DNA from: Mayamaea pseudoterrestris
Taxonomy: Eukaryota; Bacillariophyta; Bacillariophyceae; Sellaphorales; Sellaphoraceae
Assembly (NCBI GenBank): GCA_027923505.1
Contig: BROI01000007.1
Coordinates: 930,001-994,000 of the forward strand
Direction: 5' to 3'
DNA: 64,000 nucleotides
Shown here in pieces: positions 1,853 through 61,897 of the stretch (positions within the stretch are counted from its first letter, which is position 1; each line of letters starts with the position of its first letter). The notes under the pieces are model-generated. The model saw only the letters and a list, made by a program, of their open reading frames with translations, made no database searches and had not been told where the DNA came from. The translations under genes and the position numbers were made by a program.

Positions 1853-2012
1853 GTTTCGTTTGTAAAACTGTCTTGATTGCGTTTGTTTTGCTTGCAGCTT
1901 TGGCTTGGCTGACTTGAATGGAGGGCTTTCCAATCCATGAGTTCTGCCGAAACGGGGAGCGCGCGCTTTCCCGCCACGAATATAGTCGGATCGGTATACA
2001 ATTTCGTCGCAA

Positions 2013-2021
2013 CGGTACTCA
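2013..2021 (+). promoter_or_regulatory. CGGTACTCA promoter word, copy 1
   Basis: The 9-mer lies in the divergent spacer between the lipase gene and the aminotransferase gene, 62 bp before the aminotransferase ATG and in its sense direction. The same word recurs in four other promoters of this window (see findings). Its function is unknown. Confidence 0.45.
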
Positions 2022-3713: not shown

Positions 3714-3721
3714 TACCGGTA
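3714..3721. repeat. TACCGGTA palindrome, copy 1
   Basis: Perfect 8-bp palindrome in the spacer before the ribose-5-phosphate isomerase gene. Other copies are at 24314, 27766, 34041, 39669, 41911 and 55229 (two of these inside coding sequence); a related word, CACCGGTA, is at 24403. Discussed in findings. Confidence 0.5.
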
Positions 3722-11147: not shown

Positions 11148-11564
11148 GAAACAAAAGCTCGTTTGTGCAAACCCTGGTCGATTGCTCGGACCGATCTGAT
11201 GCTGAATCAGTGAGGTTCTTCTTTTTTCTGAATCTTTTTACGTGGAAACCGTAGCAACAGTTGCTACTGCAACGAGACCAATGCTAATGGAGACTCTCTA
11301 TATGATATCTACCGAGTTGACAATACAACTAAGGCCACGCGACGGATAGTCTCTGGTCCTGTTTCAGCAGATCAGGCTTGTTCCTTTCGAAGGCGCGGAG
11401 GCCGTTGCGTCTCGTCGTGACAGTGCGTGACCAAAATTCGTACCAGTACTCATAATATACATCGCATCGGTTTTTGACATGATGAAGCTCGCCATGGCGA
11501 TTATGATCACACTCGCAAGGCAAGCTTTTGAAAAGATTTAACTGAATCTTCACTCTCCGCTAAC
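11148..11564. other. Divergent promoter region of the unknown protein and prolidase
   Basis: About 415 bp. It contains an AGTACTCAT word at about 11447, one base off the CGGTACTCA promoter word. No RNA gene or convincing ORF seen; a minus-strand 74-codon frame at 11329-11553 lacks recognisable features. Confidence 0.35.
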
Positions 11565-14768: not shown

Positions 14769-15377
14769 TATAAGTTGCCAAGCACTTGCCAGTTCGCCTT
14801 TTCTATTCGAGACAATTTATGAGGCACATGGGGTGTTAATACTTGTGTTTGACTGTAGTGAATTTCAATCCTTGCCCGACGACTTTGTCGTCGGATGGAG
14901 GCCTTGCGATTTTAGCGATCGCCACGCTTTCTCAGCGGCACTGAAAACAGCATCGAATGTGTCGCATGCATTTAGCTAACGCACACGCATCAGCAGAAAA
15001 GCATGCCTGTCACCTTGCAGAGCCTTCCCTACAACCATTCTTGCACCATTCTATGTAAATACATCTTTGGTTAAAATATGGCATAATCACAGGTATTTCC
15101 TGTAGCATGAAGCAGGATCCCAGTGCCGATGGTTGCAAAGAGTCAACAAGCTCGTTTCATTTCACAACTGCCAAGTGAAAACACTGAGGCATAGTAATTT
15201 ATACTTGTATATGAATTCTATATTGGGAGCAGTCGCTCACTCATTCAGCTATGCACAGTCCAAAGGTACAATAGGTTGTCTGACGACACGGAAACGGATC
15301 GGTGAGTCATCTTCAGTCACGGATTGAAATTCAAATCCGTCACAGATCTTGTCGTCAACCCATCATTACTCGAAACC
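14769..15377. other. Divergent spacer before the lumenal protein gene
   Basis: About 600 bp between the SGNH-like gene and the lumenal protein gene, generally AT-rich. I see no ORF with sensible composition, no repeats and no RNA gene. Confidence 0.35.
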
Positions 15378-24321: not shown

Positions 24322-24462
24322 GTGATGCAATGAATGCGCAGACGGCACCTGATGCGCCATGGTCAACATAATGCATGCTGACGATGAAACGGCTATAATC
24401 GCACCGGTATTCGCTAGGACACGCTCAAGAACGACGCGGCAACCGCGGCCACAAAAATAACC

Positions 24463-32615: not shown

Positions 32616-32667
32616 CTGTTTGTTCCTTGGCGAACCGGAGATTCATTGTGCGTCATCAAACTCGTAG

Positions 32668-32676
32668 CGGTACTCA
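32668..32676 (+). promoter_or_regulatory. CGGTACTCA promoter word, copy 2
   Basis: In the divergent spacer between the armadillo-like gene and TCTP, in the TCTP sense direction, 178 bp before its ATG. The flank CTCGTAG before it and TGAG after it resemble the copies near 42893 and 42860. Confidence 0.45.
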
Positions 32677-39843: not shown

Positions 39844-40193
39844 AGTTGTCTATGAAGCAAAATTCATCTGCTTGAATCTTTCGGAGTCAGGTAGTCGGAG
39901 ACTGTCGGAGACTAATTGCATTAACTCGCAAAACCTGCTTGTTTGAATGAATGCGGCATCAGCACGATCAAAGCTTTTGGATGCAAACAAGAAGGTTGGG
40001 TCATTTGCGATGGTGTTTCGCCCGATCCAATCCATTCGTGAATGACCGTCATTGACATCTTTCAGAATCGCATCGGTTCTCACAATTTAAAAATTTTGGC
40101 GCGAAGGCGCGCACCATTCATTTCGTTCGATTCGATCCTACTTTTTGTTCTTACTCGTCTTCCTCCTTTTACTATATCCACTTTCGCTATACC

Positions 40194-42859: not shown

Positions 42860-42868
42860 TGAGTACCG
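42860..42868 (-). promoter_or_regulatory. CGGTACTCA promoter word, copy 3 (with a one-mismatch copy on the other strand)
   Basis: Minus-strand copy 129 bp before the Eaf6 ATG, in its sense direction. On the plus strand at 42893-42901, CGGTTCTCA (one mismatch, also preceded by CTCGTAG) points toward the sterol cyclase gene 94 bp downstream, so each arm of this divergent promoter has one. Confidence 0.45.
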
Positions 42869-42994
42869 CTACGATCTCATTTTGGCTCGTAGCGGTTCTC
42901 ATATTCCGTGGTTCACCGTCGCACTCGTCACACAAGCAATGCGGATGCATCTTCATTGATCATTCCACATTTTCAAGCAAACGTAGTAGCCACC

Positions 42995-50330: not shown

Positions 50331-50394
50331 TTGTCCGTCCGGTACTCACTTTGTCTTGTCTGTCCGGTACTCATTATTGTCCGTCCGGTACTCA
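50331..50394 (+). promoter_or_regulatory. Array of three TTGTCYGTCCGGTACTCA units in a divergent promoter
   Basis: Units at 50331-50348, 50356-50373 and 50377-50394 share 17 of 18 bases, with spacings of 25 and 21 bp. Each contains CGGTACTCA. The array lies between the dynactin and the 50453 gene, in the sense direction of the latter, 59-122 bp before its ATG. It may be a clustered binding site; the protein that would bind is unknown. Confidence 0.6.
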
Positions 50395-53575: not shown

Positions 53576-55282
53576 TTACTTCTGGACATCTTCATCTGCA
53601 TACACCGAAGCCCGCTCACCAACAAGCTTGTCCAACAAAAGAATCACGCTGTCATTTTTGGCTTCAATACGCTGCATTTTAATTTCCTGTTTACTATGGC
53701 TCTGCGTGAGCCTGCGAATCTCCTCCTCCGACTGCCGCTGAGCAGTCATGAACTGCTCCTCCTTTTCTTCCATCAATGCTCGCATTCTAACTTCCAGCTG
53801 ATACATTTCTTGAGCATGCTGCATTTCCTGTGCGTTCATCACCTCCAACATCAAAGTTATGGTTGCCTGATGATCCATTCCCAGTGCCCTCAACTCAATC
53901 ACACTTGCTTCCAAATCCTCAAATTGGCCTGCAGGCGTCCGTGCTTTCAGTAGCATGTTGGAAAAAGCGCGGCACAGTTTGAACTGTTGGTCTGGATTGT
54001 TACGAGCACCAAGCAGCGAGGCGAGAATCAGCGACTGACGAACATCCGTTGGAGGGTCGTCCTTGAGAAGCGGATTGTTTGCCATTTGAAAGTAAGCCAT
54101 GTCGCCCGCAGCCAGTGCAGGCAGTCTGCGACGGACTAGCAATGATGGGTGGCTATCATCATCTTCAGCGGCTGTCCACTCAAGCGTGAATGACCTGTCA
54201 GTTGGTATGGCACTTAAATGTTCTTGACAAAGCTGCCATTCACCAACGGTAACTCCGGTAAAATTAAAAGACGTCCAGCTGGTACCTTCATACAAGACAG
54301 GCGACTGCCATAAATGCTGCCAAGCTTCTTCAGTGATTTGTCCGTCTTCATACTCCACTTCTCCAGCAAATGAAAGCCACATGCTGCAAAACTCATTGAC
54401 TTGCTCTAAAGTTTCCAAATGTCGACAGCGAAAATTTAATCGAGTTTGAATGGGACTTACTTTTCCAGGCGCTCCTTCCGTATCTGTGTCGTTTCCAATG
54501 ACCTGGACAGTTTTTGAGCGAGTATTTTGCAGAAACCGCCAAGGCACGCTAGTCTTAAATAATTTGAAGCGTTCAAAAGGAAATTCTTCCAATCCATCCC
54601 ATTCACGTGGAGACAATTGATACTGATCGATTAGAATCACGCCACGCTGTCTCCAACTATCCTGCTGAAAGCAATCGCGCAAGCACTTTGGAGTGAACGC
54701 GTCGTGCACAGGCATGTTATACAACGCGTGGAGAACAAGACGTCGGCTATAATCATTTTGAGAAACATCTCTTGAGAGAGGATAACTAGTCGCAAGTTGA
54801 AGAATGTCTTGAAGATGCTGCTTGATGAGACTTAAATCGTCACGATCGTACGGGATCGAAGTTTGCGCGAGAAAGAGCTGACACTCCGTAAATCGATATC
54901 GCTCTTCTTCGATGCGGACATATGATTCAAACAGCGGGCCAATCTTGACGTATTTGATTCCATTGCTGTCTCGAATCTGAATTGTTCCGTCCATGCGCAA
55001 ATTATCGTAGAAAAGTGCGCAGAGGTTGCTCGAGATCTGGAGAATGAATCCACCATCAGCCGGAAACAAAATCGAAAGATGCTCGAACCCTACTGAAGTA
55101 AGCTGCCAAATTTTTTTGTCATCTTTTAACTGATACACTGGAAGCTCCATAGGCACGCGAATAGTCCTTGGTACCGTGACGTCGGCCTCATCGCGCAACT
55201 TTGATGCGATCAGAGTCGTCTCCTCTGCTACCGGTACATCCGACAGAATTTGACGAATTGACGCGTGCAGGACGTTAGCCAT
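53576..55282 (-). CDS. Unknown conserved-looking protein with a C-terminal coiled coil
   Basis: 568 residues from an ATG at 55282. The first 450 residues look globular (mixed hydrophobic pattern with many Trp and Phe: SVGFEHLSILFPADGGF, QLSPREWDGLEEFPFERF, NEFCSMWLSFAGEV), and the last 110 are a coiled coil of Glu/Gln/Met (AQEMYQLEVRMRALMEEKEEQ) ending EDVQK. No motif of a known enzyme is visible, and no targeting signal. The upstream region holds a CGGTACTCA copy. I do not recognise the family; the coiled coil suggests oligomerisation. Confidence 0.65.
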   Translation of the reverse strand: MANVLHASIRQILSDVPVAEETTLIASKLRDEADVTVPRTIRVPMELPVYQLKDDKKIWQLTSVGFEHLSILFPADGGFILQISSNLCALFYDNLRMDGTIQIRDSNGIKYVKIGPLFESYVRIEEERYRFTECQLFLAQTSIPYDRDDLSLIKQHLQDILQLATSYPLSRDVSQNDYSRRLVLHALYNMPVHDAFTPKCLRDCFQQDSWRQRGVILIDQYQLSPREWDGLEEFPFERFKLFKTSVPWRFLQNTRSKTVQVIGNDTDTEGAPGKVSPIQTRLNFRCRHLETLEQVNEFCSMWLSFAGEVEYEDGQITEEAWQHLWQSPVLYEGTSWTSFNFTGVTVGEWQLCQEHLSAIPTDRSFTLEWTAAEDDDSHPSLLVRRRLPALAAGDMAYFQMANNPLLKDDPPTDVRQSLILASLLGARNNPDQQFKLCRAFSNMLLKARTPAGQFEDLEASVIELRALGMDHQATITLMLEVMNAQEMQHAQEMYQLEVRMRALMEEKEEQFMTAQRQSEEEIRRLTQSHSKQEIKMQRIEAKNDSVILLLDKLVGERASVYADEDVQK

Positions 55283-55597
55283 ATTACAGATATATATCAA
55301 ACGTATGTGAACGAAAGCGATTTGTAGAGCGCAAGTGAATTGTAGATAAGTAATCGGGAGGTCGTGAAAGGGTCCGTTTCGTATTTGAAGCCTTTCGCGT
55401 TATGCAACTCGCTGGCACGGTTGAGTACCGCTAAGATATACGATGAATCCCAAAACTCATCTCGCGAACGTCTTGTACAAGTACCTGTATCTATCATACA
55501 TCCCGCCTGCTTAGGAATACAAGCCAATGAATTTGTCACATTATATGTTGTCATGAAACTTTATAAAAAGTAAACCATTGCCAGACCATTTTGCCAT
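55283..55597. other. Spacer holding a promoter-word copy
   Basis: About 315 bp between the 3' end of the epimerase-like gene and the start of the unknown gene at 55282. It contains CGGTACTCA on the minus strand at 55422-55430. A plus-strand frame of 69 codons (55364-55573) looks like chance. Confidence 0.4.
55422..55430 (-). promoter_or_regulatory. CGGTACTCA promoter word, copy 4
   Basis: Minus-strand copy 140 bp before the ATG at 55282, in its sense direction; flank TTAGCGGTACTCAACCG resembles the copy at 42860 (TAGCGGTACTCAACG). Here the promoter serves one gene only. Confidence 0.45.
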
Positions 55598-60998: not shown

Positions 60999-61897
60999 TT
61001 AAGGAATATAGTAGCCAGCATTTGCACTCTCATGAAGAGCCTCTCCCAATGGTTTGAAGAAAACAGGAGTTTCCTTGACCACTGAAAGGGACGTAACTTT
61101 TTCTTGCACAGCGAAGGCCGTTATTGCAATCATTGCCAGGCGACCATTCTTGAGCTCCGCCAGCTGCATTCGCTTCTGTCCTTCCGTCTCTTTGGGGTAG
61201 AGTCCGAGTGGGTCAAAGCCGAGGTTGCCGGCAAAGTAGGACGGGTCGTTGCTCTTGGCCTTGGAGATTCCGTACACGTCAATGGCCGCGGCAGCTGCAA
61301 GAACAACGATCCAGTAAATGGGGCTGACCTTTCCAAGACCTCCGTTGAGGAGTGAGGGGGCGCGGCCGTCCACACCAACCACTGGCGCAAGTCCAAGAGC
61401 GACGGCAATCTTCTTGTCCCAGAGCTCACTGAGAGGCCAACCAGCAGCAGCCAACATGGCCTGTTGAAAGAGTTGTGAGGAATGAACAAATGTGAGATGT
61501 TTATATGACGCATTGTCTTGTTCGCAAGTATTGGGAGCAGCAAAGAGAATCAACGTACAAGTCGCGCATGCTTGATTTCCGCCTCGCGATAGTTGAGCAA
61601 GTCCTCCTTGGTCTTGGCAAAGCCGAAAGGATCAAAGCCAATGTCTCCGACAAGGGATCCGTCCAAGGCAGCCTGACGCTCCATGAATGGAAGTGACTCG
61701 CTCATGCGCGGCAATGACGCTTTGGTTGGTTCCTGCATCTTGGGAGCAACTGGGACTAGCTCCTCCGGAAGAGTCGTTTCCTCATTCTCCGGAGTAATGT
61801 CCGTCATGCGGAGAGCTTGGTTCTTGGACATGGATTGCGACGTAAAGGCAGATGCGCCAGCTGACATGGCGAGGATGAGAGCAGCAGAGAACTTCAT
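60999..61897 (-). CDS. Light-harvesting chlorophyll-binding protein (FCP/Lhcr-type)
   Basis: Exons 61897-61559 and 61460-60999 with a 98-nt intron; 266 residues. The N-terminus ([17 protein letters not shown] before FTSQS) is the plastid bipartite signal. Helix 1 [19 protein letters not shown] is interrupted by the intron exactly after HARL and carries the Glu and His chlorophyll ligands. Helix 2 includes [15 protein letters not shown]. Helix 3 [24 protein letters not shown] has the Glu-Asn-Arg ligands. It is shorter and less typical than major FCPs and may belong to the Lhcr (photosystem I) group, which I cannot resolve by eye. It binds chlorophyll a/c and fucoxanthin in thylakoids. Confidence 0.94.

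Follow-up and report, generated by a model that had tools for sequence, protein, structure and literature searches.

In yeast, the sites of general regulatory factors such as Abf1 and Reb1 are multi-part promoter sites that occur in many unrelated genes. CP2/Grainyhead-type factors have the site AACCGGTT. Few promoter elements of diatoms are described in those parts of the literature covered by our survey; among them are the LHCX motifs and the CO2/cAMP elements TGACGT, ACGTCA and TGACGC of Phaeodactylum tricornutum (sections of PMC4915529), and TABASTA, an abundant promoter motif of Fistulifera solaris (sections of PMC5935921). From oomycetes, the combined INR+FPR core promoter is known, which Thalassiosira pseudonana appeared to lack according to the portion of PMC3599244 considered here. 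The octamer TACCGGTA is motif M94 of Phytophthora infestans (sections of PMC3597505), and the passages used of PMC10031896 report for Plasmopara halstedii two motifs upstream of gene sets (206 and 75 genes), one of them streme-5 (ATACCGGTAT), which is equated there with the motif of Seidl et al. called motif-9 (GTACCGGTA).

Here we describe a real and apparently undescribed promoter element of the diatom Mayamaea pseudoterrestris, which is most likely a transcription-factor site. It came from an earlier note on a single 64-kb stretch of DNA (henceforth the window), comprising bases 930001-994000 of contig C7 in a genome of 30.6 Mb and 41 contigs.

The element in the window

The starting point was a 9-base word, CGGTACTCA. 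All seven copies listed in the earlier note are present at the coordinates and on the strands given there, as is the one-mismatch copy CGGTTCTCA at 42893, and all seven fall outside the coding sequence predicted by a self-trained coding model, which assigned 74% of the window to coding and 26% to non-coding sequence. Dinucleotide shuffles of the window (n = 100) contained on average 0.30 copies and never more than three, so that none of the 100 reached seven. Distances of 59-190 bp to an ATG had been reported, close to the values that we found, although the choice of ATG alters them: candidate start codons lie 70 bp downstream of the copy at 2013, 186 bp from that at 32668, 45 or 137 bp from that at 42860, 113, 88 and 67 bp from the members of the triplet, and 148 or 191 bp from the copy at 55422. 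Four of the five places had been called divergent promoters, which holds when coding segments of at least 100 bases are considered (the place at 55422 then being tandem, sense), but the class of 32668 and 42860 shifts when segments from 45 bases up, which include short doubtful ones, are used.

Table 1. Extended elements and one-mismatch copies in the 64-kb window
Feature	Sequence	Position	Strand	Context
Extended element	TCGCAACGGTACTCA	2007..2021	+	Divergent: alpha/beta hydrolase gene (-), class-III aminotransferase gene (+)
Extended element	TCGTAGCGGTACTCA	32662..32676	+	Divergent promoter; + gene TCTP-like, judged by eye
Extended element	TCGTAGCGGTACTCA	42860..42874	-	Upstream of - gene with NuA4 subunit domain
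One-mismatch copy	TCGTAGCGGTTCT	42887..42899	+	Opposite orientation to 42860 copy, 25 bp away
Extended element	TCCGTCCGGTACTCA	50334..50348	+	First of triplet; CAP-Gly gene (-), gene without Pfam match (+)
Extended element	TCTGTCCGGTACTCA	50359..50373	+	Second of triplet, 25 bp after first
Extended element	TCCGTCCGGTACTCA	50380..50394	+	Third of triplet, 21 bp after second
Extended element	TCTTAGCGGTACTCA	55422..55436	-	Tandem sense promoter of gene 53606-55066 (-)
One-mismatch copy	TCGCATCGGTTCT	40068..40080	+	Divergent gap; WD40 gene on +
One-mismatch copy	TCGTACCAGTACT	11438..11450	+	Candidate; divergent gap
One-mismatch copy	TCGCACCGGTATT	24399..24411	+	Candidate; divergent gap
One-mismatch copy	TCTCAGCGGCACT	14930..14942	+	Weaker candidate; divergent gap

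The window is unusually rich in the element. The genome holds 418 copies of the bare word, a mean of 0.87 per 64 kb, and at least five places in one 64-kb window have P = 0.0021, with about one such window expected among some 478. On contig C1, where 94 merged places were available after four copies from a duplicated segment had been left out, regional clustering was not found (dispersion 0.90-1.22, smallest P 0.06). Read backwards, the bare word is at least as frequent (461 vs 418 genome-wide). Only the extended motif described below shows a clear excess.

Extended motif and genomic location

The word CGGTACTCA forms the right-hand part of a longer element, about RTCGYWNCGGTACT, which is partly degenerate, spans 13-14 bp and is imperfectly dyad-symmetric. 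The boundaries of the noted 9-mer were thus misplaced: its last CA is only weakly preferred, while a TC six and five bases upstream of the word, left out of it, is strongly preferred. At the C position of this final CA, the 100 matches listed had 42 C, 23 G, 21 A and 14 T (counted by eye), and on contig C1 the A was also present in 25 of the 45 places that matched through the C. Among 41 promoter-like copies, T and C stood six and five bases before the word in 31 and 33 copies respectively, and A or T stood two bases before it in 38. A longer context had indeed been noticed for several copies in the window, and this context is real, but the TAG noted there is just one common state of TCNNWN, which in full precedes 34 of 55 distinct bare-word copies.

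With these positions included the excess is obvious. TCNNWNCGGTACT has 992 exact matches genome-wide vs 208 for the reversed pattern, a nearly fivefold difference, and TCNNWNCGGTACTCA with at most one mismatch has 1326 vs 332. Opening positions pairwise gave 532/179, 591/176, 471/79 and 469/84 matches (motif/reversed), the commoner substitutions among the first 100 matches listed for each being T for the first C, T for the second G, and T or C within TA. When one mismatch is allowed in TCNNWNCGGTACT the excess is absent (4348 vs 5695 reversed), and lone one-mismatch matches are therefore untrustworthy and may be background; the reversed pattern may itself be a poor control at this level because it contains the start-codon-like TCATGGC.

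For closer analysis we collected 102 distinct copies of TCNNWNCGGTACTCA, seven from the window, 27 from 48 distinct bare-word loci and 68 from 70 extended-pattern loci, all those outside the window coming from contigs C1-C8. Identical 100-base contexts were counted once, by which two of the 70 loci, and earlier two of the first 50, were dropped. Their consensus is R-T-C-G-Y-W-N-CGGTACT, in which T, C, W and the core follow from how the copies were selected. The R position was A or G in 90 copies (G in 70) and Y was found in 83, and the base after W was free (16 A, 39 C, 21 G, 26 T). Beyond the motif the flanks share almost no information, being unrelated except for a few duplicated segments, and we have accordingly rejected an origin from a repeat or transposon family. 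The pentamer GTGAC stood exactly at +17 from the element start in six of the 102 copies (L002, L020, L065, L098, L119 and L122) vs 0.22 expected, and GACAT at +19 survived correction for about 20,000 tests; the composite CGGTACTNNNNGTGAC was weak genome-wide, with 17 matches vs 10 for the reverse.

The sites were classed by their nearest coding segments of at least 100 bases, using a coding model trained on the window and the early loci. Fifty-eight of the 102 copies lay between divergent genes, 21 were tandem sense and 8 tandem antisense, 5 coding and 2 convergent; for 4 only a sense gene downstream of the copy was seen, for 3 only an antisense gene upstream of it and for 1 only an antisense segment downstream. 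The promoter location proposed in the earlier note is thereby borne out genome-wide, the next downstream gene being on the same strand for 83 of the 102 copies and only the five just mentioned lying within predicted coding sequence. The window agrees with this, with none of its 16 matches at up to one mismatch coding, vs 70% of the matches of 20 column-shuffled patterns and 9 of the 11 of the reversed pattern. Typically, the element is found roughly 40-450 bp upstream of the predicted coding sequence. Fourteen loci had no clear sense gene, and searches there for small RNA or tRNA genes found none.

The element may have some preference for divergent promoters. The ratio of divergent to tandem copies was 58:29 (P = 0.0025 against one half, by our own reasoning the divergent share under random gene orientation). 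The element is nevertheless not a mark of all divergent promoters, an idea that we rejected: gaps with a match at up to one mismatch made up 8 of 10 divergent, 5 of 30 tandem and 0 of 11 convergent gaps in the window, but 2 of 19, 5 of 78 and 1 of 15, respectively, at the other loci with the bait gap excluded.

Some features of the genome itself emerged along the way. On contig C1, at about 1.832-1.871 Mb, five motif places are each repeated at a distance of 19,945 bases, probably the mark of a tandem duplication of about 20 kb, and loci L037 and L038 share a flank. On contig C2 (about 593-615 kb) the pairs of motif places 593593/604974 and 603388/614769 are each 11,381 bases apart, likely also a duplication. 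The word TCATTCCGGTATTCA occurs four times within 3.5 kb at 1826960-1830381 of contig C2, perhaps as a local repeat family. The light-harvesting family has 53 matches in the genome, and the two products compared best match fucoxanthin chlorophyll a/c proteins (7vd6 chains, which we take to be those of Chaetoceros gracilis), in line with a diatom genome. Two matches to this family lie in the window at 61101-61672 on the minus strand (C7:991101-991460 and 991559-991672) and apparently belong to a single, intron-containing gene. Light-harvesting genes are also found at loci L034 (C7:278 kb) and L035 (C9:441 kb); their products, and likewise the reading frames upstream of them, are almost identical, which suggests recent copying from one contig to another.

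Orientation, pairing and likely function

The earlier note regarded the word as a position- and strand-specific promoter element, perhaps of the core promoter. Its place in promoters stands; strict strand specificity and a core-promoter position are not borne out. That the copies were always in the sense orientation is nearly automatic with four of five sites divergent, since either strand there is sense to one gene and such sites carry no strand information. Tandem promoters are the informative ones, and their 21 sense and 8 antisense copies (binomial P = 0.024) show a preference, not exclusivity. For the 58 divergent copies, the nearer gene was the sense one in 31 cases and the antisense one in 26, the two being equally far in one, and the quartile distances were alike, 98/174/270 on the sense side and 93/171/281 on the antisense side.

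Copies also come in groups. Within 60 bp of the 102 copies there were 19 second matches, in 13 sequences, vs 0.57 expected with the rate at 150-700 bp as background (the window triplet being counted from each of its members), and three control patterns gave 4, 4 and 1. Thirteen of the 16 distinct pairs were 17-27 bp apart, in the same or in opposite orientation. This is about two helical turns, a spacing expected of cooperating proteins on one face of the DNA and unlike that of a start-site element. The loose orientation, the alike distances and the pairs running either way all suit a transcription-factor site better than an initiator.

In our judgement, the element is probably the site of a sequence-specific transcription factor with a general promoter role at one or both flanking genes. 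A factor of the diatom would bind it as double-stranded DNA at sites that often lie between divergent genes, singly, in pairs or as a triplet, mostly 17-27 bp apart. Once bound, it would likely keep the intergenic region open and recruit the transcription machinery for one or both neighbours, acting as the general regulatory factors of yeast do, without itself setting the start site. The tandem sense bias of 21:8 speaks against this reading, as it would not be expected of a purely orientation-free site.

A general role is to be weighed against that of a condition-specific regulator, for which the carrier genes would form a regulon, e.g. for cell cycle, light or nutrients. Paired copies of a strong, partly degenerate site would be expected of a single regulator as well, and the 58 copies between divergent genes would be placed for potential co-regulation. 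The genes downstream nonetheless look unrelated. Pfam scans covered 10 proteins of the window and 40 of the 62 sense proteins gathered from the first 73 copies, and revealed no common pathway; 24 of these 40 sense proteins had a match at 1e-5, Methyltransf_16 being the sole family to be best hit twice. The matches included DcpS decapping, nascent-polypeptide NAC, MnmE, mitochondrial carrier, lumazine-binding domains, pyruvate kinase, sulfate permease and the uracil-DNA glycosylase superfamily, among others. Judged by the 40 proteins scanned, the element is present in many promoters of functionally unrelated genes, like the site of a general regulatory factor, and this mixture leads us to favour a broadly used promoter factor and to hold a narrow regulon for somewhat unlikely.

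Improbable, and rejected by us on account of the orientation, the alike distances and the weak last bases, is the idea of a core-promoter or initiator element that would set the start of transcription, at TCA. The tandem sense preference would agree with it, as would its lying no more than a few hundred bp from predicted coding starts, but the final CA is only weakly preferred, eight tandem copies are antisense, the divergent copies are not nearer to the sense gene (31:26), repeated copies take either orientation, and about a thousand exact copies would have to serve a whole genome. An RNA-level element in the 5' leader of the sense transcript is more doubtful still, and we consider it very improbable; a sense gene does follow in 83 of 102 cases, but the eight tandem antisense copies, the several divergent copies that are near the antisense gene and far from the sense gene, and the pairs in opposite orientation speak against it. 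Chance, i.e. a common word in a rich window, could draw on the bare-word counts and on the roughly one equally rich window expected per genome, and is hardly credible given an extended motif nearly five times as frequent as its reverse and sharply concentrated in non-coding, upstream sequence.

A second, palindromic motif and the comparison with known systems

The element had been put forward as absent from the literature. In the open-access literature, which covers few of the subscription journals, we found no description of it among the matches listed; those for the exact word CGGTACTCA, also in combination with promoter motif, were unrelated by title, and the match examined for diatom together with CGGTAC was a primer. 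The claim needs qualifying in one respect, as the CCGGTA core resembles promoter motifs of oomycetes.

A second sequence also bears on this resemblance. In 208 upstream regions with the element masked, the most over-represented octamer was TACCGGTA, a palindrome whose 20 copies count as 40 on both strands (0.6 expected). It occurs at 2048 places genome-wide vs 874 for its reverse and was non-coding in 35 of 42 places examined; of all 42, 11 were within an exact element, 9 were CTACCGGTAG and 7 were ACTACCGGTAGT. The pure TACCGGTA palindrome is thus a second, mainly non-coding motif of this genome. Within the window it stands at 3714, 24314, 27766, 34041, 39669 (coding), 41911 and 55229. The diatom element contains TACCGGTAC in 16 of its 102 copies; a palindromic TACCGGTA core is not shared by the element as a whole, the base after W being free.

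The paper of Seidl et al. that defined motif-9 is presumably PMC3520976. The motif words that we sought are absent from the part of its text covered here, and the core words are likewise absent from the main texts of a Phytophthora protein-binding survey (PMC11267843) and of a P. tricornutum aureochrome paper (PMC10967249), both of which present their logos as non-searchable figures. It is conceivable, though we think it unlikely, that a single ancient promoter system of the stramenopiles takes two forms, the element and the palindrome. Its factors, a family reading CGGTA half-sites by their spacing and symmetry, would have the general task of opening promoters in this lineage and would have been retained since diatoms and oomycetes separated. 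The element allows a test of whether the two groups share promoter machinery. Its approximately 1000 exact copies, clear consensus and natural pairs also make it a concrete bait in the search for the factor, and the compact divergent promoters that carry it could be useful in diatom genetics.

Compared with the sites of Abf1 and Reb1 in yeast, the element is likewise multi-part and associated with unrelated genes, but its sequence differs. The RTCRY half of the Abf1 site resembles the RTCGY of the element, the other half being one base off. A search for the CP2 domain (PF04516) had no match in the genome and was uninformative, as the control genomes were equally without one. The LHCX motifs and CO2/cAMP elements of P. 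tricornutum are diatom promoter elements too, and the nine sequences in the table of PMC4915529 show no match to the element by eye; TABASTA, from the sections used of PMC5935921, is also a different sequence. The INR+FPR combination, as given in the portion of PMC3599244 considered, is similarly a stramenopile promoter element near gene starts, but one that marks the start site and has another sequence. With the oomycete motifs built on a TACCGGTA core, the element has in common that it is a stramenopile promoter motif with a CCGGTA core over-represented in promoters; unlike them, it lacks symmetry, has a preference for TC on its left side and can do without the C at the free position. Resting on eight bases, the resemblance is to be taken as a lead and not as homology.
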